Under the pieces are notes generated by a model. The model was not told where the DNA came from, searched no databases, and saw nothing but the letters and a program-made list of their open reading frames with translations. DNA of 64,000 nucleotides from an uncultured Verrucomicrobia subdivision 3 bacterium. GTDB taxonomy: Bacteria; Verrucomicrobiota; Verrucomicrobiia; Limisphaerales; UBA11358. Below, in pieces: positions 20,098 through 63,916 of the stretch. The number at the start of each line of letters is the position of its first letter. Position 1 is the stretch's first letter. A program made the translations under genes and the position numbers. The stretch covers positions 1-64,000 of the forward strand of contig CAIPKV010000085.1 in assembly GCA_903865745.1 (NCBI GenBank), written 5' to 3'.

Positions 20098-23019
<2,922 letters not shown>

Positions 23020-23403: not shown

Positions 23404-23802
23404 GACGGTTCCGCGCCAGCCTGCCGGCAACTTTCGCCAGCCAGTGACGGTTCCACCCGACCCTTGGGCGGACTTGCCCGGGGCTTGGGCGGTTTCGCCA
23501 GACCCTCTGGAAGTTCCTACCCAGCATCGGGAGGAACCTCTGAGTCGTCTGGAAGTTTCTCTGAGTGGCTCAGAAGTTCCTCCGAGCCGTCTGGAAGTTT
23601 CCCTGAGCGGCTCAGAAGTTTCTCCGAGCCGTCTGGAGGTTTCCCTGAGTGGCTCAGAAGTTCCTCCGAGCCATCTGGAAGTTTCCCTGAGCGACTCAGA
23701 AGTTTCTCTGAGCCATCTGGAAGTTCCTACGAACCACTCAGAAGTTCCTACCAATGGCCTGGAAGTTCCCCGGAATCATGGGAAAAGTGCCAATTTCGTT
23801 TA
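23404..23802. repeat. 21-bp phased palindromic array 1
   Basis: Cores start at 23509, 23530, 23551 and every 21 bp to 23782 without any indel; degenerate older units continue upstream in the same phase to about 23404. That gives roughly 19 units. The core is GGAAGTT(T/C)CC or AGAAGTTTCT, an inverted repeat (GGAA/TTCC, AGAA/TTCT). Between cores, CTGAG-NGG-CTCAG forms a second inverted repeat. In the middle, units alternate so that a 42-bp higher-order period is seen, suggesting recent duplication of unit pairs. The stretch is open in several frames on both strands simply because 21 is a multiple of 3; I do not regard these frames as genes. A small helical+FnIII-like gene begins 84 bp downstream. 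Confidence 0.9.
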
Positions 23803-23886: not shown

Positions 23887-24582
23887 ATGAAAAGAGACCC
23901 GATTAAAAAAACTGACCTGGCCTTCGCGGCCCAGTTGCTCACCTGCAAGACCAACCTCCCGGCGCACGCGGCCACGCTGAAATTAACCCTCGAACAAGTG
24001 GCTTCGCAGGCGGCGGATGCCTTGGCCTTCAACTACTGGCTCAGTAGCAACACTGCCATGCACCGCGACGCCCAACAGTTCACCAAGTGGAAGAATTTGA
24101 TGCGCAACGGCGGCGCGGTGGGCATGGACAAGGAACCGGGCGTGCCGGTCTTGCCCGACCCCGTGCCGCCGGTGGACCCGGGCATTGAGGATCGGCACCG
24201 CGCCCTGATTGTGTCCTGCCATAACAATCCTGCGTACAACATCGCCATTGGCACGGCGTTGGACATGGAAGGCGCCGAGATTACGCCGCCGGATTTGACC
24301 CTGGTGATGCCGTTGCTCACGTTGACCATCAGCGGCAATCAGGTGGTCATCGGCTGCGGCTGGCAGGGGTATCAAGCCTATCTGGACCAGGTGGAACTCC
24401 AGGTGGACCGCACCGATGGCAAGGGTTACGTCCTGCTGACCTATTGCACCACGCCCGGCTTCACCGACCCCACGCCATTCCCCGCCGTGCCGACCAAATG
24501 GACTTACCGCGCCATCTTCCGCCTGAACAACGCGCAAGTCGGCCAATACAGCAGCCCCGTCAGCATCATGGTGGGAGTTTGA
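23887..24582 (+). CDS. Small helical + fibronectin-III-like protein linked to array 1
   Basis: 231 residues, no signal peptide or membrane segment. The N-terminal third is predicted alpha-helical and begins with a KTDLAFAAQLL motif shared with the protein at 33249 (SDLAFAAQM). The middle is a Pro-rich linker (PVLPDPVPPVDPGIED). The C-terminal half is beta-rich and fibronectin-III-like, with GWQGYQAYLDQVELQVDR, TPFPAVPTKWTYRAIF and a terminal VSIMVGV. The C-terminal half matches the 33249 protein closely (WQGYRTFLDLCEFQVDRRDG, TPFPAVPTIWQYRAIY, VSVTVGV), so the two are paralogues. It lies just downstream of array 1 in the same orientation. I do not recognise a function. Confidence 0.75.
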   Translation: MKRDPIKKTDLAFAAQLLTCKTNLPAHAATLKLTLEQVASQAADALAFNYWLSSNTAMHRDAQQFTKWKNLMRNGGAVGMDKEPGVPVLPDPVPPVDPGIEDRHRALIVSCHNNPAYNIAIGTALDMEGAEITPPDLTLVMPLLTLTISGNQVVIGCGWQGYQAYLDQVELQVDRTDGKGYVLLTYCTTPGFTDPTPFPAVPTKWTYRAIFRLNNAQVGQYSSPVSIMVGV

Positions 24583-32558: not shown

Positions 32559-32813
32559 ATGTGGCAAAGATACATTTTTGGGATGCACTGGAAGCATGGC
32601 GACAAGATGTATTATGATGAGTTGCCAGCCGACTCAAAAGAGGAGGCGGCGTTATATTTTATAGACCACAAGCGCGACGACGTTTCGTTGGTCAAAGTCG
32701 AGCCAATCGGCCCAGATGATTGTGGTGTTCGAGAGTTTGCACATTCGCCGCTTTCGCCTTTTGACCCATTGAAGGCACGTCGCAGGTTAGACAAGGACGA
32801 GGATGCCAGATGA
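32559..32813 (+). CDS. Small conserved-looking hypothetical protein
   Basis: 84 residues, hydrophilic and charged, no signal peptide. It contains SKEEAALYFIDHKRDD and an SPLSPFDPLKARRRLDKDED tail. The sequence looks genuinely coding: compact, with no stop-bounded overlap by a better gene. An internal ATG at residue 9 is an alternative start. No function recognised. It stands alone between the pdxH unit and array 2. Confidence 0.5.
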   Translation: MWQRYIFGMHWKHGDKMYYDELPADSKEEAALYFIDHKRDDVSLVKVEPIGPDDCGVREFAHSPLSPFDPLKARRRLDKDEDAR

Positions 32814-32943
32814 ACCACGACGCTAATCCAAGTCCAGTTTGTGAACTTTTCCTGTAGCCACCTCGCTTTTCCCTCGCGGCGGTCATCGATTAAGAATCTT
32901 TTCCTCATCCGCCCAGCCTAAAAGCGTCGTCGGCAGCCGTTAC

Positions 32944-33132
32944 TTCTCATCCCTCGGATTCGGAGGAACATCCTTGAGACTTAGAGGGATATTCCCCGGA
33001 TTTTGCGGGACGTTCCTAGCATTCCGAGGGATATCCCTAGGGTTATCAGGAACGTCCCCCGTCTTTCTAGGGACGTCCCTAAAACTACGGGGGACGTCCC
33101 CTGTAATCCGAGGGATGAGCATTTTAGCCGGA
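32944..33132. repeat. 21-bp phased palindromic array 2
   Basis: Cores start at 32965, 32986, 33007, 33028, 33049, 33070, 33091 and 33112, exactly 21 bp apart, with a degenerate unit at 32944. Core: GGGACGTCCC, a perfect 10-bp palindrome. Variants include GGGATATCCC (still a perfect palindrome), GGAACGTCCC, GGGACGTTCC and GGGATATTCC. The remaining 11 nt differ from unit to unit. It precedes the helical+FnIII-like gene at 33249 by about 117 bp in the same orientation. Confidence 0.9.
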
Positions 33133-33248
33133 TGTTGAGCTGGAAATGAGTTAAAATCGTTCATTTAGCCGAGTTTAACCATTATTCAGACGATTTAGCT
33201 TGTTGCCCGGGGTTTTCGGCGCATGCTGCTGGATACACCCCAAAAACC

Positions 33249-33959
33249 ATGCCCAAAAAAGATTTGATTCCCCAAAGCGACCTCGCCTTCGCGGCGCAGA
33301 TGCGGACGTTCCAGCGCAATATCGCCAGCCACGCCGCCAATCTCAACGTCACCGCTGAGCAGGTGGCAGGGCAGTCGGCGGATTCGGACCACTACAATTA
33401 CGTCGTGATGAGCCAGCAACAGATGCTCAACGTCAGCAAAGCGTGGACGATCTGGCGGAAATCGGTCCGCAAGGGTGATTCGACGACGGACGGCACCGGG
33501 CTGGAGCAGACCATGCCCAACACCATTCTGTCACCGGCCCCGCCGGCGGTGTTGCCGGGTGTGGAAAAGCGGTTTCGCGCGCTGCTGCGCCAGATCAAGG
33601 CCAGCCCGAATTATAAATACACCATTGGCGTGGAGCTGGGCATTGAGGCGGCGAGTTTGACCGCGCCGGACTCTGCCGTGCTCCAGCCAAATATCATCGT
33701 ACGCGTCGTTGGTAGCCGGGTGCAGTTGGTCTGGGATTGGCAGGGCTACCGGACGTTTCTGGACTTGTGCGAGTTTCAGGTGGACCGTCGCGATGGCTTG
33801 GGTTTTGTGCCGTTGACGCATAGCGTTCACCCCGGTGGCTGGGATTTAACGCCGTTTCCCGCCGTGCCGACAATCTGGCAATACCGCGCCATCTACCACG
33901 CGAACGGCCAACGCATCGGCCTCTGGAGTCAGATTGTAAGTGTCACCGTGGGAGTTTAA
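33249..33959 (+). CDS. Small helical + fibronectin-III-like protein linked to array 2
   Basis: 236 residues, soluble, no signal peptide. N-terminal helical region with PQSDLAFAAQMRTFQRNI, Pro-rich linker (SPAPPAVLPGVEKRF), then a beta-rich C-terminal half with VWDWQGYRTFLDLCEFQVDR, TPFPAVPTIWQYRAIY and VSVTVGV. It is a clear paralogue of the 23887 protein, with about the same length and the same three-part plan. It is followed 29 nt later by the convergent end of the debranching-enzyme gene. Function not recognised; the link to a 21-bp array is positional. Confidence 0.75.
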   Translation: MPKKDLIPQSDLAFAAQMRTFQRNIASHAANLNVTAEQVAGQSADSDHYNYVVMSQQQMLNVSKAWTIWRKSVRKGDSTTDGTGLEQTMPNTILSPAPPAVLPGVEKRFRALLRQIKASPNYKYTIGVELGIEAASLTAPDSAVLQPNIIVRVVGSRVQLVWDWQGYRTFLDLCEFQVDRRDGLGFVPLTHSVHPGGWDLTPFPAVPTIWQYRAIYHANGQRIGLWSQIVSVTVGV

Positions 33960-33988: not shown

Positions 33989-36900
33989 CTAAGCCAGTAG
34001 TTGCCAGACGCGCAGGGCCTCGGTCACGCCCCAGGCTTGCGCGTCGCAACCGCGTTGGGTGTGCGGGGCGTCGCCGTCGAGGATTTCGGGAATCTGGCCG
34101 AGACAACCTTCGTTCAACAATTTCTCCGAGCTGCCCAAATACGCCTTGGCTGCCGCGCTGGCGACCGGTGAAAAATCCCACGCCCGCGCGAGCGCTTCGC
34201 AAAAAGTCGGGAACGTCCACGTCCACGCGGTGCCATTGTGATAGGCGGGCTTGCGGCGCGTGTCTTCGTCGCCCGCGTAATGTGGATAATACGGTTCGCT
34301 CGGGTTATTAAGCAAATGGCCGTCGCGCCAGATGGGCAGCGGCACGGTCACCGGCAGCGGCGCGAGCGAGCGCAAGGCGCCGGGCACGATGAGATATTTG
34401 CGGGCCGCCGCGACACAGCGCCGGGCGCGTTCGCCGGTGACGAGCCCGAGGCTGACGGCGAAGAGGCAATTGCTCCGCAAGGCGTCGCTGGCCGTGGCAT
34501 CGCGAGCGATGACGTTGGCTTTGGCAATCAACACGTCGGCGAACCAGCCTTCGTTCTCGAGCCAGAACAATTTTTCAAAGGAAGCCGTCGCGTGATCGGC
34601 GAGGTCGCGCCATTTCTTTTGGTCGGGCTTGGCGGAAATCTTTTCCAGCAATCGCAACAGCCGGATCCACAGCACCTGGATCTCGACGGGATAACCTTCG
34701 CGCGGCGTGCCGGCGGGATAATTGGTGTCCATCCACGTGAAATGGCTCGGGCTCCAGATGAGTGCGGAATCGGCGTCCATGCGGATGCCGTTGGGCGTGC
34801 CTTTGGCATAATTCTCCGCGATGCTCGTGAGGACGTCGCGGAGGGTGCGGCTGCCATCCGCGCGCACATTGAAAAACTTCTTATCCGCCAAGTCGTCACA
34901 CACGACGGCGAACCACAGCGGTGCGTCGGAGGTGTCGCGATTCGAAACGTCGTTGCCATGAATTGTGTTGGGCAGCGTGCCGTCCTTTTCAAACTTGGCG
35001 AAGGTGAGAAGCAGTTGCTTCACGTCGTCCGTCAGGCCCGCCGCCAGCAACCCGCGCGCGCTGATGAGCGAGTCGCGGCCCCAGTCCAGAAACCACGGAT
35101 AACCGGCGATGACCGTCTTGCCGTCGTCGCGGCGCACGACGAATTGTTTGGCTGCGCGGGCGAGTTGCGCGGGGAAATTTCCGATTTCCGATTTCCGATT
35201 TCCGATTTCGGGGATGGCGGTGGAATTATTCAACTCCGCTGTAAGGACGAGCGTCGCGTCGGCGCCTTTGGTTAAGGGGATTTCAAACCAGCCGGGGCTG
35301 TACGCGTCGCCGCTGCCGGTCTGGCCGCGCGTCTGCTCGACGGGATGCGGGATGTTCTCGCACCATTCCGGCTGCGGATGATATTCGCCCGCGTCAGCGA
35401 AAACGTGCAACTGGCGGTCAACAGCGGGCGTGAAGGCAAAGCCGGTGAAGTTTTGAGTTTTGAGTTTTGAGTTTTGAGTGGCGTGGCAGTTCGAGGAGAA
35501 ATGGTAGTCTGCACCGCCGTTGCGTTTGGTCTCGCCATGGAAATTCCGGTCCTCGATGTCCACGCGCACGGTCAGGCGGACGTCGGCGTCGGCGGGCAAT
35601 TGTTTGCCGCGCGCCAGTTTTGCCGTCGGGCGGCGGAACTGAAAGACGGTCGTGTTTTTACCATCCACCATTTCGGCGCGAAGCTCGATTTCCACCGTAC
35701 GGCTATCGCCGGCGTTCGCGACAAAATTCCAGATGGCGGGCGCACCGGACTGGAACGACGCGAGGTTTTTGAAATCGAGCGGCGAAAGAAAACCGTCGGC
35801 GTTCACCCAGACGCGGAGGCGCTTCACAAACACGTGGCGATCTACGGGAACAGTGGGGTTCAGGTTCGCGCCGAGAGCGCAGTCGTATTTGGAATTGATG
35901 CGGCCGAGATCAACGCCAAGCCGCGCCATGCCGCCGATACCGTTCGTGAGCAAAACCAGGTCGGTGGGGCGAGGATGGAGGATGGAGGATGGAGGATCGT
36001 TGGCGAGAAAGCGCACGGCCGCCGAAACTTTTTGCGAGGTCGTGGCGTAGCGCTCCAAGGTCAAATCCGCTTCCGCCGCCGAATCGCGCGGGGCGAAGCA
36101 GGCGATATGGCGGTTGCCCACGGCAATGGACTGGACATGAACCGCTCCTGGTTTTCCATTCTGTATTCTGCCTTCTTCCTTCTGCATTTCCAACGTCGCC
36201 CGGAACGGCGCGCTGTCCTCCACCAGCAGCCAGTGACCTGGTGGCACGAGCGTGACGCGGCGGGCATCGAGCAAGGTCCAGCCGATGACGCGCGGGAAAA
36301 CGTTTCCAGCGGCAACCTCGGACAACACTGCGGCGAACGACGTTTTGATTGTGCGGGCGGCGAACTCGCTGGCGGCGGCGAGAAAATTCTCCGGCGAACT
36401 TTCAACTTGTTGCGCCAGCCAGCGCCAGTCGAGATCGTCCGCGGTTTCGGCGGGCATGATTTGGTTCAACGACTCCAGCGCCCACGCCGCCTGCGCGCGG
36501 GTGCGACGATAGGCATCGCCTGCCAGACCGACCGGCTGCTCGGTCGGCGCGAGACAGTAAGCCGCGCCCGGCATCAGTATGAACTCGGTTGCAGCGTTGG
36601 TGACGGACAGTTTCGGCAAGGGCTGGCCGAGCAGGTCAGTTATGAGTTTTGAATTTTGAGTTTTGAGTTCAGGCAGCGGCAGCGTGTTTTCTCTTTCAAG
36701 GTCCGTGTTTATCAGTACCAGCACGGTGTCCTTGCCCTCGGCGGATTCGCGGAGCAGGGCATAGACGGGTGACTCGGGGGCGCTTAGGCGCGTGAGCTTT
36801 GCGCCATCGAAGAAACACGGATGGTCGGCGATGAGCGTGTTCAATCGCGCGAGTTCGGGGACGAGGTTGGCGACGTTGTCCCAGTTCAAGCCGGTGTTGC

Positions 36901-38296
36901 CGTGGACGCGGATTTTTTCGGTGGCCAGCCATTCCACGCCGTTGGTGAAGCCGAACCCACCGCTCGGACTCGTGAGCGCACACAGGCGGTTGCGCAGGAG
37001 CGACCACGCGTAGCCGCGTTTCGCGAGGCGGTCGTTATCATGCGTCTCGGAATAATGGACGTAGGTGCCGACGCGCTCGTTCTGGCGGTTCGCGTAATCC
37101 AGATACCACGCGACTTCCTTGCCGCTATAATTTTGAAAGAGTTCGGAGTACGCCCATTGCATCCCGCCTTCGGTCAGCAATAGTTCCGTGGCGTCCCAGG
37201 AACCGCCCAGACCTTCGAGCAGAAAAATGGTTTCCGGAAATTCCTCTTGCACGCGGGCGACGATGTATTGCCACGCAGGCGCGGGCACCTTATAGCCGGC
37301 ATCGCAGCGGAAACCGTCCACGCCGCGCCGGCACCAGGTGATGAGCGAGTCGGCGATGAGGTCCCACAGCTTGACATCGTGCTGTTCGAGTTCCACCAAA
37401 TCTTCCCACACGGTGCCCCACGCGCCGGGGCTGGCGAATTCGCCATCGGGCTGTTTCAGGAAGAACTCGGGATGATTCTCCTGCAAGGTCGAGCCCCAGC
37501 CGGTGTGGTTGATGACAATATCGATGAACACGCGCGCACCGAGCGAATGCGCGGCGTAGGTCAGCTCGCAAAACTGGTCAATGCCCGTGGTGCGCTTATC
37601 GAACTCCACGAGCGCGGGATCAACCGCCGTCAAATCGAGCGCGGCATAGGGACTGCCAAAACGTCCGAAGCGCGCATAAGTCGTCGGCGTGGGATGCACC
37701 GGCAGCAGATGAATAATGCGGCAGCCGAGCCGGTTGATGATGAAGGGAAGTTGCTTGGTAAGGTCGCGGAATTTCCCCGAAGGCGGCAGCGTGGCGTAAC
37801 CTTCAGCCTCAAGGGATTTTAATTGGATGTCCAGTTTTTCATCGGCAGTCGCGGCGAGCGTTTTGGTGGCGCCGAACAAGCGCGTGAAGGCGCAATAGAT
37901 GGTGTTGGCGGTGCGGGAAAAGTTCGGGTGGACGGAAATGCCCACGTCCGAACCGTCCGGCCAGTGCTGCCAGTTTTTATCGTCGAGCAGATAGGCTTTG
38001 GCTTTGAAGTAGCCGACCTCGGCGAACGGCAGTTCGAGCGTCCAGCCATCGGCGGTGGGCTGCATGGGAATATCGCGCCAGGAAGAATTAGCGACGACCG
38101 ACTGGCCGGCGTGGGCGGAGATGATTTCCTGGCGGCGGGCGGCGGCGCGACCGAGATTGGTACGGAGCCGGGCGGCCCGGTATTTGGGCGCACCCGGACT
38201 TTTATCCGTGCGAATGGTGAAAGTGATTTTGTCGCCGACGAAGCGCACAAGGCGGTCGCCGGCGGCCGGAGACATGACTGGTTTGGGTAAATCCAC
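33989..38296 (-). CDS. Two-domain glycogen debranching enzyme (GH13-like + GH133)
   Basis: 1435 residues. The N-terminal half is a GH13 alpha-amylase-type domain: DIVINHTG, GVDGFRCDAGY (nucleophile D332), LLEGLGG (acid/base E361) and HYSETHDNDR. The C-terminal part is a GH133 amylo-alpha-1,6-glucosidase (WGRDSLISARGLL with D1075, NTIHGNDVSNRDTSDAPLW). The plan resembles the bifunctional eukaryotic debranching enzyme: transfer a short oligosaccharide, then hydrolyse the remaining alpha-1,6 branch. Bifunctionality is inferred. With glgB it makes a branching/debranching pair. At least five in-frame heptanucleotide repeats are translated in linkers: PEIGNRKSEIGN, QNSKLKTQNF, PPSSILHPR, MQKEEGRIQNGK and LKTQNSKLI. 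No signal peptide; cytosolic. Confidence 0.92.
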   Translation of the reverse strand: MDLPKPVMSPAAGDRLVRFVGDKITFTIRTDKSPGAPKYRAARLRTNLGRAAARRQEIISAHAGQSVVANSSWRDIPMQPTADGWTLELPFAEVGYFKAKAYLLDDKNWQHWPDGSDVGISVHPNFSRTANTIYCAFTRLFGATKTLAATADEKLDIQLKSLEAEGYATLPPSGKFRDLTKQLPFIINRLGCRIIHLLPVHPTPTTYARFGRFGSPYAALDLTAVDPALVEFDKRTTGIDQFCELTYAAHSLGARVFIDIVINHTGWGSTLQENHPEFFLKQPDGEFASPGAWGTVWEDLVELEQHDVKLWDLIADSLITWCRRGVDGFRCDAGYKVPAPAWQYIVARVQEEFPETIFLLEGLGGSWDATELLLTEGGMQWAYSELFQNYSGKEVAWYLDYANRQNERVGTYVHYSETHDNDRLAKRGYAWSLLRNRLCALTSPSGGFGFTNGVEWLATEKIRVHGNTGLNWDNVANLVPELARLNTLIADHPCFFDGAKLTRLSAPESPVYALLRESAEGKDTVLVLINTDLERENTLPLPELKTQNSKLITDLLGQPLPKLSVTNAATEFILMPGAAYCLAPTEQPVGLAGDAYRRTRAQAAWALESLNQIMPAETADDLDWRWLAQQVESSPENFLAAASEFAARTIKTSFAAVLSEVAAGNVFPRVIGWTLLDARRVTLVPPGHWLLVEDSAPFRATLEMQKEEGRIQNGKPGAVHVQSIAVGNRHIACFAPRDSAAEADLTLERYATTSQKVSAAVRFLANDPPSSILHPRPTDLVLLTNGIGGMARLGVDLGRINSKYDCALGANLNPTVPVDRHVFVKRLRVWVNADGFLSPLDFKNLASFQSGAPAIWNFVANAGDSRTVEIELRAEMVDGKNTTVFQFRRPTAKLARGKQLPADADVRLTVRVDIEDRNFHGETKRNGGADYHFSSNCHATQNSKLKTQNFTGFAFTPAVDRQLHVFADAGEYHPQPEWCENIPHPVEQTRGQTGSGDAYSPGWFEIPLTKGADATLVLTAELNNSTAIPEIGNRKSEIGNFPAQLARAAKQFVVRRDDGKTVIAGYPWFLDWGRDSLISARGLLAAGLTDDVKQLLLTFAKFEKDGTLPNTIHGNDVSNRDTSDAPLWFAVVCDDLADKKFFNVRADGSRTLRDVLTSIAENYAKGTPNGIRMDADSALIWSPSHFTWMDTNYPAGTPREGYPVEIQVLWIRLLRLLEKISAKPDQKKWRDLADHATASFEKLFWLENEGWFADVLIAKANVIARDATASDALRSNCLFAVSLGLVTGERARRCVAAARKYLIVPGALRSLAPLPVTVPLPIWRDGHLLNNPSEPYYPHYAGDEDTRRKPAYHNGTAWTWTFPTFCEALARAWDFSPVASAAAKAYLGSSEKLLNEGCLGQIPEILDGDAPHTQRGCDAQAWGVTEALRVWQLLA
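35177..35211. repeat. Heptanucleotide repeat (ATTTCCG type)
   Basis: ATTTCCG four times and ATTTCGG once, inside the debranching-enzyme gene; translated on the minus strand as EIGNRKSEIGN. Confidence 0.9.
35451..35478. repeat. Heptanucleotide repeat (TTTTGAG type)
   Basis: Four perfect TTTTGAG units inside the debranching-enzyme gene; translated as QNSKLKTQN. Confidence 0.9.
35971..35998. repeat. Heptanucleotide repeat (GAGGATG type)
   Basis: GAGGATG three times and GAGGATC once, inside the debranching-enzyme gene (PPSSILHP). The same unit recurs at 47519 and 49669. Confidence 0.9.
36157..36191. repeat. Degenerate heptanucleotide repeat (CATTCTG type)
   Basis: CATTCTG, TATTCTG, CCTTCTT, CCTTCTG, CATTTCC inside the debranching-enzyme gene (EMQKEEGRIQNG). 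Confidence 0.7.
36641..36668. repeat. Heptanucleotide repeat (TTTGAGT type)
   Basis: TATGAGT, TTTGAAT, TTTGAGT, TTTGAGT inside the debranching-enzyme gene (KTQNSKLI), the same unit family as at 35451. Confidence 0.8.
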
Positions 38297-38582
38297 CTGC
38301 GAAAGTTTTAACAGGAAGCGGTGCGGGGCGAAATGAAAATTGAAGGGGCGAACCCAATGAATTTTAAAACCAAGAACGCGTTGGAGGATTCCGGCGCATT
38401 GCGAGTTTATGCCGGGACTTTATCCGCAATTTTAAAAGATGAACGCAGGTTTTGTTTTTTAATCGGCGGAATCGGCATCCTCTGCGGGAAAAACCAAGTC
38501 AAGGTTTGTGAAATGTAGAATCCCACTTCTTTTTGCGGCACGCGCGGTCGTTGGGACGCCGGCTTTATCTGTTTTGCTGCCG
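38297..38582. other. Intergenic sequence before array 3
   Basis: Nothing gene-like recognised; it leads directly into array 3. Confidence 0.4.
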
Positions 38583-38960
38583 GGCAAACGTGGTTTCTTG
38601 CTGGGTAAACGGGTTTGCTTGGCAGGCAAAGGTGTTTGCTGGCCGAGAAAAGGTGATTTCCCGGCGGGCGAATGGAATAACCCAGCGGGCAAGCCAGCTT
38701 GCCGCGCGGGCAAAGCCGTTTACCGGCTGGGCAAGCGTGTTTTCCCCTCGGGCAAGCGCAATAATCTCGCGGGCAAACGGAATTACTTGCCGGGCAAAGC
38801 GGTTTGCTAGGCAGGCAAAGGCGTTTGCTTGCCGAGAAAACGAATTTTCCCTTCAGGCAAAGCTGATTTCCCTGCGGGTAAACGGGTTTACCGCGCGGGC
38901 AAAGACGTTTTCCCTCGGGGCAAACGCGTTTGCCTGAGGGGAAAAGACGTTTGCCCGAGC
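38583..38960. repeat. 21-bp phased palindromic array 3 (18 units)
   Basis: Eighteen units begin at 38583, 38604, 38625 and every 21 bp to 38940 with no indel. Consensus: a 6-nt arm GGCAAA, four variable nt, the complementary arm TTTGCC, five variable nt. Arms co-vary in several units: GGTAAA/TTTACC (38877), GGCAAG/CTTGCC (38688), and GGCAAA/TTTGCC forming the perfect palindrome GGCAAACGCGTTTGCC (38919). A transcript would be a chain of 6-bp tetraloop hairpins. Frames through it (heptad pattern such as GKR-PAGK) are by-products of the 21-bp period. Unlike the other arrays, no helical+FnIII-like gene follows; the next gene is at 39292. Confidence 0.92.
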
Positions 38961-39291
38961 CTTAATATGCCAAAAACACCCTCCAAACGGCAAAATCTGC
39001 CACTTTTAGCCGTAAACTGGCCAAACTGACAAGCAAGTGGCGATAGTTGAACACTTAATTTGGTTTCGGAGGTACCGCCGGAAATAGTCTAGGTTTTTGT
39101 CGCCGGATTAAATTCGCAAACCTTTCTAGTCCAGCGGGGCGGTGGACGACCTAAAGTCATTCACACAGGTTTCGTGTATTTAGCGTCTTTAGCGGTAAAA
39201 CCTTTCCCTCCAAAATCAATTAGCCCTTTCTTTGGGTTGCGTTGACGGCGGGTGCGCTTTAACTTGGCAACGAATTTGCTGATTTTCATCA
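38961..39291. other. Intergenic sequence after array 3
   Basis: No gene seen. It contains the CACTTTTAGCCG motif at 39001-39012; a similar CATTTTAGCCGG follows array 2 at 33120-33131. The promoter for the 39292 gene should be here but is not obvious. Confidence 0.35.
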
Positions 39292-40143
39292 ATGGCGACG
39301 CCTACATTAAATCCCGGTGAAGAAGCTCAATTGTTGCAGACAATTGAGATGTTCGAGGTGATTGTGCAGTCGCAATCGGGCGACACGCAATCTTTGGAAA
39401 TCTTGAAGGAGGCTTACTCGAAGCTGGGGCGCGAGGATGACGTGGTCAATACGTCCAAACGGATTGCGCAGGCGTACCTCCAGCAGGGGCAGTTGTCGTC
39501 GGCCATCCTGGAATATGAGACGGTCTTGCAGCGCCGCCCGGATGATGCGGATGTGCGCACGGCGCTGAAGCAGATTGAGGATAAGGCCAGCAGCGCCGTA
39601 GTACAGCCATCGCAGGAATCCGCCCCCGTAGCTTCCGTCGCCGATAACGCCAATGCCGCCGCGCGCCGCAAGGTAAAGCTGGCGGGGGATGAGGTGGATG
39701 ATGGGCGCAAGACGATGTATAAGGTTTTCGTCGAGAGCAAAATCATTACGGCGGGGGATTTTGATCTGTGCTGGCGTAATGTGGATATGACGCTGCCGCC
39801 CACGGACCCAATCGAGCCGTTTATCCAAATGCTGCATGAGAAGGGGATTTACCTGATCGATAAATCGCTGCGGTTGCTGTCGGATAAGTCGCGTCTGGCG
39901 TATCTGCCGATGGAACGTTACGACGTGGAGATGGATCTGGTGCGCGGGTTTCCGGCGGATGTGTGCCGGCGCTGGTGCGTGCTGCCTTTCGACCGCATGA
40001 GTAAGGCGATTTTGGTGGCGACGGCGAATCCGTTTAATCAGCAGGCGGCCAAAGAACTCGGTGAGGCGACCACGCACCGGTTGCTGTGGTACATCTCGCC
40101 GCCAAATGACATCGTGGCCAACCTGCGCAAAGCTTTCCGCTGA
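39292..40143 (+). CDS. TPR protein with GspE/PilB N-terminal (MshEN-like) domain
   Basis: 283 residues, soluble. The N-terminal half has tetratricopeptide-like helices (about 12-110: SLEILKEAYSKLGREDDVV, AYLQQGQLSSAILEYETVL). After a flexible linker, the C-terminal part (about 135-283) resembles the N-terminal domain of type II secretion/type IV pilus ATPases (LPMERYDVEMDLVRGFP, CVLPFDRMSKAILVATANPFN). MshEN domains can bind c-di-GMP; whether this one does is not shown. The gap to the ATPase gene is only 2 nt, so the two are coupled. Probably a regulatory or adaptor partner of the motor (inference). Confidence 0.8.
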   Translation: MATPTLNPGEEAQLLQTIEMFEVIVQSQSGDTQSLEILKEAYSKLGREDDVVNTSKRIAQAYLQQGQLSSAILEYETVLQRRPDDADVRTALKQIEDKASSAVVQPSQESAPVASVADNANAAARRKVKLAGDEVDDGRKTMYKVFVESKIITAGDFDLCWRNVDMTLPPTDPIEPFIQMLHEKGIYLIDKSLRLLSDKSRLAYLPMERYDVEMDLVRGFPADVCRRWCVLPFDRMSKAILVATANPFNQQAAKELGEATTHRLLWYISPPNDIVANLRKAFR

Positions 40144-44385: not shown

Positions 44386-45804
44386 ATGGCCTTGAAACTG
44401 TTTAACACGTTGACTCGCTCGGTACAGGAATTCGCGCCCCTCGACCCGGCCGGCAAAAAGGTGGGCATGTATTGCTGCGGGCCGACGGTTTATGACTTTG
44501 CGCACATTGGCAACTGGCGCACGTTTGTCTTCGCCGACTTCGTCCGCCGCACGCTCGAATTTTCCGGCTACGACGTGCAGCACGTCATGAACATCACCGA
44601 CGTGGAGGACAAAATCATCAAGCGCGTCCGCGAAAACAAAACGACTCTGCGCGATTTCACAGGCAAGTATGAAACCGCTTTTCTCGACGACCTGAAAGCG
44701 CTTGGCTGCCGCGAGCCGCATCAGAAACCGTGCGCTACGGATCACATTCCTGAAATCATCGCGCTCATCGAAAAGCTCGTGACGCGCGGCGTCGCCTACC
44801 AAGCCAGCGACGGCTCAGTCTATTTCAGTATCGAAAAGTATCGCGGCTGCGGCTGCCATTACGGTCAGTTGCTCAAGCTGAATCTCGACGAGCTGCGCAC
44901 CGGCGAACGCGTCGCTGCCGACGAATACGAAAAGGAATCGGTTGCCGACTTCGCGCTCTGGAAGGCCCGGGTGCCGGACGATGGCGACGTGTTCTGGCCG
45001 AGTCCGTTTGGCGAGGGCCGTCCCGGCTGGCACATTGAATGTTCCGCGATGAGCATCAAGGCGCTCGGCGAGACTTTCGATCTGCACCTTGGCGGTGAGG
45101 ATTTGAAGTTTCCGCATCATGAGGACGAAATCGCCCAGAGCGAAGGCGCGACCGGCAAACCGTTCGTGAAATTCTGGCTCCATGGCGCGCATCTGCTCGT
45201 TGAAGGTAAGAAGATGAGCAAGTCGCTTGGAAACTTCTTCACGCTGCGCGATTTGCTGGCGAAAGGTTTTACTGGTCGCGAAGTGCGTTATCTGCTGCTG
45301 ACCGCGCATTACCGCGAAACCTTTAATTTTACAATCGACGGTCTGCATGGCGCGAAGTCGGCGCTGGCGCGCATTGATGAGTGCGTCGGCAAGCTACGCG
45401 AGTTGGCCGAGAGTCCAAAGTCCAAAATCCAAAATCCAAAGCCGGAGGCAGCGCTGATTGACAGATTCACCGCCGCGCTCGCGGATGACCTGAATATTTC
45501 CGCCGCGTGGGCTGCGGTCTTCGAGTGGGTGCGCGAGATCAACAAGCGTCTCGCCGATAGTTCGTTATCGGCCGGCGACGCAGGCGCTGCGCTCGCTGCG
45601 TGGGAGAAAGTTGAATCTGTTCTTGGTATCGGTGTAAAAGCAGATGCCGAAATACCCGCCGAAATTACCGCGCTCGCCGAGGAACGCACCGCTGCAAAAA
45701 AGGCGAAAGATTTTAAGCGCAGCGACGTCATCCGCGATGAGTTGAAGGCCAAAGGCTGGGTCATCGAAGACACACCGAAGGGAATCAAGTTGAAAAAGAT
45801 TTGA
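44386..45804 (+). CDS. cysS: Cysteinyl-tRNA synthetase
   Basis: 472 residues. Class I aminoacyl-tRNA synthetase charging tRNA-Cys. The HIGH-type motif is FAHIGNWR following CCGPTVYD (zinc-ligand Cys). Further zinc-site residues lie in GWHIECSAM and FPHHEDEIAQSE. The KMSKS motif is K276-MSKS. Full length, with the C-terminal DALR-like helical domain (DLNISAAWAAVFEWVREINK). Four heptanucleotide units at 45412-45439 are translated as a linker (ESPKSKIQNPKPEA) between the catalytic core and the C-terminal domain. tmk follows after 40 nt that are partly heptamer repeats. Confidence 0.97.
   Translation: MALKLFNTLTRSVQEFAPLDPAGKKVGMYCCGPTVYDFAHIGNWRTFVFADFVRRTLEFSGYDVQHVMNITDVEDKIIKRVRENKTTLRDFTGKYETAFLDDLKALGCREPHQKPCATDHIPEIIALIEKLVTRGVAYQASDGSVYFSIEKYRGCGCHYGQLLKLNLDELRTGERVAADEYEKESVADFALWKARVPDDGDVFWPSPFGEGRPGWHIECSAMSIKALGETFDLHLGGEDLKFPHHEDEIAQSEGATGKPFVKFWLHGAHLLVEGKKMSKSLGNFFTLRDLLAKGFTGREVRYLLLTAHYRETFNFTIDGLHGAKSALARIDECVGKLRELAESPKSKIQNPKPEAALIDRFTAALADDLNISAAWAAVFEWVREINKRLADSSLSAGDAGAALAAWEKVESVLGIGVKADAEIPAEITALAEERTAAKKAKDFKRSDVIRDELKAKGWVIEDTPKGIKLKKI
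45412..45439. repeat. Heptanucleotide repeat inside cysS (AGTCCAA type)
   Basis: AGTCCAA, AGTCCAA, AATCCAA, AATCCAA, translated as SPKSKIQNP within cysS. Confidence 0.9.
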
Positions 45805-45819
45805 TTTACTCGCCGCCGC

Positions 45820-45847
45820 GTAAATCGTAAATCGTAAATCATAAATG
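45820..45847. repeat. Heptanucleotide repeat supplying the tmk start codon
   Basis: GTAAATC three times followed by ATAAATG; the ATG of the last unit is the tmk start at 45845. No Shine-Dalgarno sequence is seen, so tmk translation begins directly from the repeat. Confidence 0.85.
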
Positions 45848-62496: not shown

Positions 62497-62661
62497 CAGG
62501 GGTGAGGACGGTCTTCCCAACCTCTGACTAAAAATCCCTTCGTGCCAATGGGTGAAATTCGGGTCTGTCCCAACCCAAAAACCGCAGATTCGGCCTAAGC
62601 CCACCATTGCCAACGGCTTAACCATATTTACCGTCCGCCAACTGTTGTTTTCTATACACGT

Positions 62662-62880
62662 AAGCTCCCGCTTGCGTCGCACAAGCTCCCGCTTGCATGA
62701 CAAAAGCTCCCGCTTATGACGCGCAAGCTCCCGCTTCGGCCGTCTAAGCTCCCGCTTGTGTGACAAAAGCTCCCGCTTGGCTCACGCAAGCTCCCGCTTG
62801 TGACGTTCAAGCTCCCGCTTTAATCAGCCAAGCTCCCGCTTTGGCGACCCAAGCTCCCGCTTAATGGCCGCAAGGGAGTC
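62662..62880. repeat. 21-bp phased array 4: invariant 12-mer plus variable 9-mers
   Basis: AAGCTCCCGCTT (arms AAGC/GCTT, TCCC loop) occurs ten times without a mismatch at 62662 and every 21 bp to 62851, then a degenerate terminal copy AAGGGAGTC at 62872. The ten 9-nt intervals are all different: GCGTCGCAC, GCATGACAA, ATGACGCGC, CGGCCGTCT, GTGTGACAA, GGCTCACGC, GTGACGTTC, TAATCAGCC, TGGCGACCC, AATGGCCGC. The pattern (fixed repeat, unique intervals, degenerate last repeat) is CRISPR-like in form but much shorter, and no cas gene is present. It is followed about 420 bp later by the helical+FnIII-like gene at 63302. Confidence 0.95.
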
Positions 62881-63301: not shown

Positions 63302-63916
63302 ATGGACCATGTAGGTTTAGACTTCGCAAACAAAAAGCCGAACGACCTGTTCAAGTTCGGCGATAAAGTTCACACCGCCCAGTTGGCCAATGTCCCGTTG
63401 TATGCCGGGTGTTTGATTACGGCGGTGATGCTCAACACGGCCAATCAGGATTACGGTGCCAAGATTGATGCAAGAGCCGAGGGCGGACCCATCTCAACGA
63501 AGGTCGCGTTAGCTTCCCGTGCGGTGCTCCTCGGCCTGCTCTATCAAATTGCCGCGTGGCTCGAAGGCAAGGCGGCCGGCAACGCGGATACCATCAACCT
63601 CGCCGGTTTTGATACCGTTGAACACGTTTACTCGCCCCAGACGATTCTGCTTACGCCAGCCATCAAGGCCATCCTGAACTTCATGACCACGCAATTGAAA
63701 TTGCGCGTCACGACGGTGCCCAATGCGAATTCCTTCGAGGCGCAATATCGCATCGCCGGTGGCGCGTGGGTGCCGTGCGGTTCCTTCCCCAACTCCCGTG
63801 CCATCATCATCACCGGACTGGTGCCGGGCGTGATGTACGAATTCCGCGTGCGCGCCGTGGGCGGCCTCACGGGTTGGTCGGCCTGGAGCGATACCGCCAG
63901 CCACATGTGCATGTAA
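63302..63916 (+). CDS. Helical + fibronectin-III protein linked to array 4
   Basis: 204 residues, no signal peptide. The N-terminal 125 residues are mainly helical (YAGCLITAVMLNTANQDYG, VALASRAVLLGLLYQIAAWLEG). The C-terminal part is a fibronectin type III domain (PNANSFEAQYRIAGGAWVPC, RAIIITGLVPGVMYEFRVRA, GGLTGWSAWSD). The N-terminus is not obviously homologous to the 23887 and 33249 proteins, but length, helical-then-FnIII plan, orientation and position downstream of a 21-bp array are the same. Function unknown. A clear terminator follows. Confidence 0.75.
   Translation: MDHVGLDFANKKPNDLFKFGDKVHTAQLANVPLYAGCLITAVMLNTANQDYGAKIDARAEGGPISTKVALASRAVLLGLLYQIAAWLEGKAAGNADTINLAGFDTVEHVYSPQTILLTPAIKAILNFMTTQLKLRVTTVPNANSFEAQYRIAGGAWVPCGSFPNSRAIIITGLVPGVMYEFRVRAVGGLTGWSAWSDTASHMCM

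Follow-up and report, generated by a model that had tools for sequence, protein, structure and literature searches.

A 21-bp palindrome array and the helical-plus-Fn3 gene behind it: a candidate two-part cassette in a Verrucomicrobia subdivision 3 genome

We analyzed a stretch of 64,000 nucleotides (the window) from an uncultured Verrucomicrobia subdivision 3 bacterium. We found that a row of 21-bp palindromic units, array A2, lies just upstream of a gene for a 236-aa protein, and that this union of array and gene is almost certainly a real and conserved unit. Our preferred, still tentative, reading treats A2 as the 5' component of a cassette with two parts, a palindrome array with a 21-bp pitch and a helical-plus-Fn3 gene, and names the cassette's own protein as the likeliest reader of the array. 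As far as the libraries searched show, the array-gene unit has no name, domain annotation or function in databases and open-access literature; that no earlier description was found in the latter is weak evidence of absence. The parts of the A2 locus are as follows.

32936–33124, no strand: array A2, nine units of 21 bp, core GGRAYRTYCC (sequence and unit table)
33125–33248, plus strand: leader between A2 and the partner gene, 124 bp (coordinates of array and ORF)
33249–33959, plus strand: partner gene of A2 (ORF), 236-aa protein with an N-terminal helical domain and a C-terminal Fn3 fold

The preliminary description of A2 had counted eight or nine in-phase units, and the array does contain seven good and two decayed units in 21-bp steps. 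In register, the first five read TTCTCATCCC, GGAACATCCT, GGGATATTCC, GGGACGTTCC and GGGATATCCC, and the sixth to ninth GGAACGTCCC, GGGACGTCCC, GGGACGTCCC and GGGATGAGCA. Exact GGRAYRTYCC sites begin at 32986, 33007, 33028, 33049, 33070 and 33091, and the site at 32965 has a single mismatch; the pitch of these seven good sites (32965–33100) is exactly 21 bp. The end units, at 32944 and 33112, have four and three mismatches. At no more than one mismatch, the core occurs seven times in the 189 bp of A2, against 0.09 expected, and the window holds no exact match beyond A2's six. An 84-aa ORF upstream of the array (32559–32813, plus strand) had no Pfam match; its DNA is about 72–79% identical in several congeners that have no A2 array at that place.

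The host assembly comprises 3.63 Mb in 87 contigs. The window contig, C85, looks chromosomal, with gyrase and housekeeping genes. In the 1.35 Mb (37%) scanned, period 21 gave 75 arrays, whereas any other period from 13 to 32 gave 0–5; the refuting outcome named in the preliminary description, period-21 palindromes at chance frequency, was not obtained. Seventy-one arrays could be delimited, with a median of 13 units, and extrapolation gives about 190–200 arrays per genome. Most arrays of the scanned part have a dyad-symmetric consensus, and their information content is highest around the dyad. Successive cores are spaced by 21 bp in 925 cases, 42 bp in 35, 63 bp in eight and other distances in 11; these counts are an upper bound on rigidity, as the detector requires period 21 and is biased against indels. 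The window itself has three further arrays.

23447–23782, no strand: array A1, 16 alternating 21-bp units (super-period 42 bp), in front of a paralogous gene
38542–38961, no strand: array A3, 20 units, core GGGCAAA-N4-TTTGCCC, orphan
62647–62877, no strand: array A4, core AAGCTCCCGCTT

These have the period of A2 and different cores, as had been described. The common design of period 21 with a two-fold symmetric core, and the many private core families within one genome, recur throughout the 37% scanned. A3 stands between the genes 33989–38296 (minus strand) and 39292–40143 (plus strand; TPR/MshEN domains).

The symmetry belongs to the consensus, and individual units are not protected against asymmetry. 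Only three of the seven good A2 sites are perfect palindromes. In the three arrays with the A2 core, changes at core positions 3 and 8 are one-sided (A..C seven times, G..T six times, A..T never). The central dinucleotide of A2 and two same-core arrays is of the YR type (CG 11, CA 5, TA 5, TG 4), and its two positions show no departure from independence (p = 0.40). The exchange of a central CG for TA, on which the preliminary description had built, is thus present in A2 as GGGATATCCC, but it is merely one form of an unlinked YR center. Over 46 arrays, compensatory covariation was absent (2,276 complementary cells observed against 2,263.6 expected, of 4,044). Given the one-sided departures and the unlinked center, the claim that the units stay palindromic when they mutate is unsupported. 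RNA hairpins were rejected, since there is no covariation. All ten full units of A4 have an identical 12-bp core, AAGCTCCCGCTT, and free variation is seen in the 9-bp spacers. Conserved cores, free spacers, a pitch of two helical turns and the lack of compensation together point to putative duplex binding sites and not to hairpins, and we consider it probable that the arrays are platforms for binding in duplex form.

The period of seven codons raises the question of whether the arrays encode a heptapeptide-repeat protein. A stop-free frame in the gene sense is present in 38 of 50 arrays, and stop-free plus frames number 23/24/24 against 13/11/13 expected. Yet there is no consistent start codon, and amino-acid conservation shows no strand difference beyond the column null (best-frame z 4.13 against 3.93, p = 0.34). 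With neither start codon nor codon-level constraint, the array as coding sequence was rejected; the idea is very improbable. The gene-sense strand of gene-linked arrays is rich in C (C 4,446, G 3,545, T 3,116, A 2,795), with scarce stop codons and no coding signs, and its palindromes tend to have a purine arm followed by a pyrimidine arm.

The link to one gene family, which had been overlooked, was established by several searches. Of the matches in the relatives search, 10 lie in the own genome and 19 in others, and every full-length match has a period-21 array upstream, weakly so in L035 and L038. A profile search found 12 family loci in the own genome and patchy copy numbers in congeners (12, 12, 8, 6, 6, 5 and so on, often 0). 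A scan of 84,980 species genomes found 63 family loci; the carriers, named as on their MAG records, belong to several Verrucomicrobia groups, Methylococcales, Flavobacterium, Chitinophagaceae, other Bacteroidetes and Ignavibacteria. Among the 53 loci with enough upstream DNA, a period-21 signal lies within 800 bp upstream in 46 and downstream in three (Fisher p 1.6e-18). In the 37% of the host genome that was scanned, all 10 array-adjacent family genes follow their array in the same reading direction. The density of palindromic arrays tracks family copy number across 15 genomes (Spearman 0.73, p = 0.002; samples outside G000 are small), and genomes with zero family genes yielded one palindromic array in roughly 0.6–0.7 Mb.

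The partner gene of A2 starts about 124–125 bp past the array, and it has a paralog in the window behind A1.

23887–24582, plus strand: gene for a 231-aa paralog of the A2 partner (identity about 42%), 105 bp past A1

The AF2 model of the 236-aa protein (pLDDT 90.9) predicts helices at residues 11–28, 36–75, 105–118 and 124–130 and an Fn3 fold at about 140–236. The C-terminal domain of the model compares well with the Fn3 beta-sandwich, matching many Fn3 chains (VIA Z 10.7–11.6, rmsd 2.0–3.3 over 84–94 residues). For the N-terminal helical domain alone, no PDB counterpart was found (best Foldseek E 4.5; VIA Z at most 4.2), which does not make its fold new. Sequence searches of Pfam, NCBIfam, PADLOC and the PDB gave no match to the family, and PHROGs gave only trivial ones, two weak single-member hits. 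A phage, viral or plasmid origin was rejected, as viral contig, phage and plasmid collections (the last with 72,556 records) contain no relative. The family genes are under purifying selection; in the pair L058/L060, 11 amino-acid changes stand against 37 synonymous codons.

A further array-following protein was found at the end of the window.

63302–63916, plus strand: 204-aa protein, weak fn3 match, 425 bp past A4

It resembles the array-following proteins L156:3559-4188 and L177:8329-8955. Proteins of this type (about 205 aa, with Fn3 C-termini) form a second array-linked family.

Tandem repeats directly upstream of a gene, with a specificity that changes with the array, and a sense strand that is pyrimidine-rich and poor in stop codons would also suit an RNA repeat system like type III toxin-antitoxin, in which repeat RNAs transcribed from the array would bind the protein encoded behind it. 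ToxIN, a system of this kind, has a tandem repeat array directly upstream of its partner gene (PMC8860590). The ToxI repeats, however, are RNA pseudoknots that inhibit an endoribonuclease, whereas the repeats studied here are palindromes of the DNA type, which lack both a loop and compensatory changes, and gene-free arrays occur in gaps of all gene orientations (17 tandem, nine convergent and seven divergent). No match to a ToxN-type endoribonuclease was found in Pfam, NCBIfam or PADLOC. We regard this explanation as quite improbable. Rfam gave a single match, Acido-Lenti-1 RNA (RF01687) at L146:16534-16579; it lies on no array, a short way beyond the end of an array-following, distant member of the family (L146:16706-17368, minus strand).

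Pairwise profile comparison showed that 34 array pairs lie beyond the 99.9th percentile of a symmetry-preserving null, against 1.5 expected. These core-sharing pairs include orphans that match the arrays of the A2, L056, L060 and L061 genes; the A2 core, for example, recurs in an ordinary intergenic gap at C12:5999-6229 (similarity 0.92). The array at C28:53351 matches A4 with 85.6% identity along 395 bp, and the unit order is kept. Flanks of 100–155 bp are common to arrays with different cores, such as A4 and C52:75093 (L136:15093). This copy, together with shared flanks around different cores, shows that arrays are copied through the genome and their content is exchanged between conserved flanks.

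Exchange was also seen in recent paralogs. In L058/L060 (own genome), the genes are 90.7% identical in DNA and a 412-bp upstream block 86.2%, and the arrays between them have unrelated cores. The arrays are likewise unrelated in L052/L055 (both G014; gene 91.7%, upstream block 85.9%) and L041/L047 (own genome; 81.7% identity, with 133 bp at 92.5%). The array was kept in the cross-species pairs L055/L059, L104/L110 and L073/L075 and in the same-genome pair L075/L076, so swapping is frequent and no rule. The cassettes are therefore related by descent, whereas the array that they contain is subject to exchange. The preliminary description had deduced that the arrays share architecture and not ancestry by simple copying. 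This is only half right: the common architecture and the differing cores stand, but arrays are in fact copied, and its palindromy of every unit does not hold.

Array swaps are accompanied by change at the N-terminus of the protein. In three independent swapped pairs, and with residues 1–30 picked after inspection, amino-acid and synonymous changes number 21 and 10 in these residues and 51 and 100 in the rest (OR 4.1, p = 0.0006). The array-keeping pairs have 22 and 44 in residues 1–30 and 174 and 284 in the rest (OR 0.8, p = 0.5). A conversion tract is disfavored by the synonymous divergence, which shows no increase at the 5' end. Over all pairs with an identity of at least 0.55 in the rest of the protein, N-terminal similarity follows array similarity (rho 0.53, p 9e-4); significance is lost when L075/L076 are left out (permutation p 0.16). 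These two paralogs in one genome share a core, so orthogonality is not strict.

The arrays could be selfish minisatellites, non-functional slippage repeats that hitch-hike with mobile cassettes and repeat-rich flanks and owe their symmetry to hairpin-assisted amplification. Their patchy presence between congeners, the array copies with shared flanks and the lack of compensatory covariation agree with this, as does the loss of homology right at the stop codon in two of three swapped paralog pairs. Terminal inverted repeats and target duplications were looked for at the cassette ends, and none were found. But cores are conserved while spacers saturate (A4, and the information peak at the dyad), spacing is held at 21 bp with hardly any indels, placement upstream of one gene family holds across phyla, and swaps go with N-terminal change. 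None of this is expected of neutral satellites, and we consider the explanation rather unlikely.

The arrays could also be banks of operators through which a dimeric regulator, for instance of the XRE HTH type, controls the gene behind them. Sites of two-fold symmetry that share one face of the helix immediately ahead of a gene would be suitable, and at 11 of 66 family loci the array is immediately preceded by an XRE-type HTH gene (Pfam HTH_3 E 6e-12), which in every case has the same direction. These genes are of two classes and occur at L035, L043, L052, L055, L057, L059, L060, L068, L081, L089 and L091; L058 retains just the 3' end of one. Most loci lack such a gene, however, A2 included (about 1.2 kb checked), and the class II HTH proteins of L052, L055 and L059 keep GVSRQMLGGVEDD, although the array core differs in L052. 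Same-core orphan arrays show no promoter bias either: the gene-free arrays are distributed roughly like the comparison intergenic regions of at least 300 bp (120 tandem, 34 convergent, 45 divergent). An operator bank is thus an unlikely explanation, and the XRE HTH protein was rejected as universal binder on account of its presence at 11 of 66 loci.

A small ORF of about 50–60 aa with WDSG and EPGDPGYV-like motifs lies between array and gene at about a dozen loci, and at L038, L039, L044, L049, L068, L071, L074, L075 and L100 it ends at the partner start codon. It is absent from the A2 locus. A common leader motif, TTTACCGTYCRCCAMC, gave two clear matches only and was weak against shuffles.

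In the two-part cassette that we prefer, about 8–20 palindromic sites at a rigid 21-bp pitch would form duplex DNA bound by a protein of two-fold symmetry. As 21 bp make two helical turns, all sites lie on one face, and dimers could align in a regular row, perhaps cooperatively. The likeliest reader of the core would be the protein encoded in the same cassette, or a complex that includes this protein, and specificity would lie within or close to its N-terminal 30 residues. The host genome holds roughly a dozen cassettes plus many gene-free arrays, and those of the same core would be further targets of the cassette protein. After duplication of a cassette, one copy would gain a new array and its N-terminal segment would change alongside, leaving orthogonal array-protein pairs within one genome. 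For the cell or the element, the bound rows may serve to spread or maintain the arrays, or to package or mark DNA.

That the partner protein reads the array is plausible, but we put it forward with reserve. A DNA-binding fold was not recognized in it, Fn3 domains usually bind proteins or glycans, and the XRE-type HTH protein is an alternative binder at its 11 loci. There are more core families than family genes, so many arrays have no known partner. We hold it possible, though somewhat doubtful, that the cassettes represent a new class of chromosomal element, in which an N-terminal segment reads a private phased palindrome, dispersed arrays serve as targets and orthogonal pairs arise by swapping. 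If the protein does read the array, the natural pairs and swapped paralogs would be a series for learning how new DNA specificity arises, gained here by a protein with no recognized DNA-binding fold. They would also be a second, protein-unrelated solution beside REP/RAYT for seeding palindromes through a genome.

Plasmid iterons are repeats of about 20 bp at a two-turn pitch, upstream of their binder's gene and private to each replicon. The 21-bp arrays differ from them in being chromosomal and in having palindromic, not directional, sites; Pfam revealed no Rep domain in the partner, and the plasmid collection no relative.

REP/RAYT systems consist of dispersed intergenic palindromes in private classes, and repeats of its own class flank the gene; how abundant the repeats are depends on the presence of the gene, and gene duplication is followed by a new repeat class (PMC3686654). 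Private classes, gene-tied abundance and new classes after duplication are also seen with the 21-bp arrays, where abundance follows the cognate gene (the Spearman coefficient given above, with its small samples outside G000) and orphans share gene-linked cores. REPs, however, are single or paired elements of 20–40 bp whose 5' motif is GTAG/GTGG and which a HuH/tyrosine transposase processes in single-stranded form (PMC8266576, PMC3686654), whereas here we have duplex-style phased rows and a helical-plus-Fn3 protein. A RAYT gene encodes a HuH/tyrosine (Y1) transposase from among the IS200/IS605 relatives; no transposase match was found for 41 family members in Pfam (at E 0.01) or for 14 members in NCBIfam and PHROGs, and the invariant columns of the family include no histidine. 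In a REP, an imperfect palindrome comes after the 5' tetranucleotide; the unit consensi of A2 and other arrays have no common tetranucleotide.

The geometry recalls partition centromeres, which are tandem inverted-repeat sites at a fixed pitch; parS adjoins the gene of its cognate dimeric binder, and parS/sopC of the F plasmid has twelve repeats of 43 bp, within which lie ten inverted repeats of 16 bp (PMC6238139). In contrast, the partner family has no ParA/ParB-type domain and no plasmid relative, and many arrays and cores share one chromosome. By these analogies, the unit resembles REP/RAYT in its population pattern (PMC3686654) and partition arrays in its geometry (PMC6238139), and is a member of neither, because a RAYT transposase and a ParB-type binder are absent.

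Shorter repeats were seen as well. Tandem repeats of 7 bp (TTGGACC, ATTTCCG, AGTTTTG, GAGGATG and others) occur in the window at 21565–21592, 21816–21863, 35177–35209, 35449–35479, 35971–35997, 36638–36669, 45412–45441 and 45819–45846, and several of them sit in the long ORF 33989–38296, where they read as heptapeptide stretches. Repeats of period 16/24 (8 bp) lie farther upstream than the 21-bp array at L070, L079, L088, L096, L102 and L120, mostly in Verrucomicrobiaceae and neighbors.
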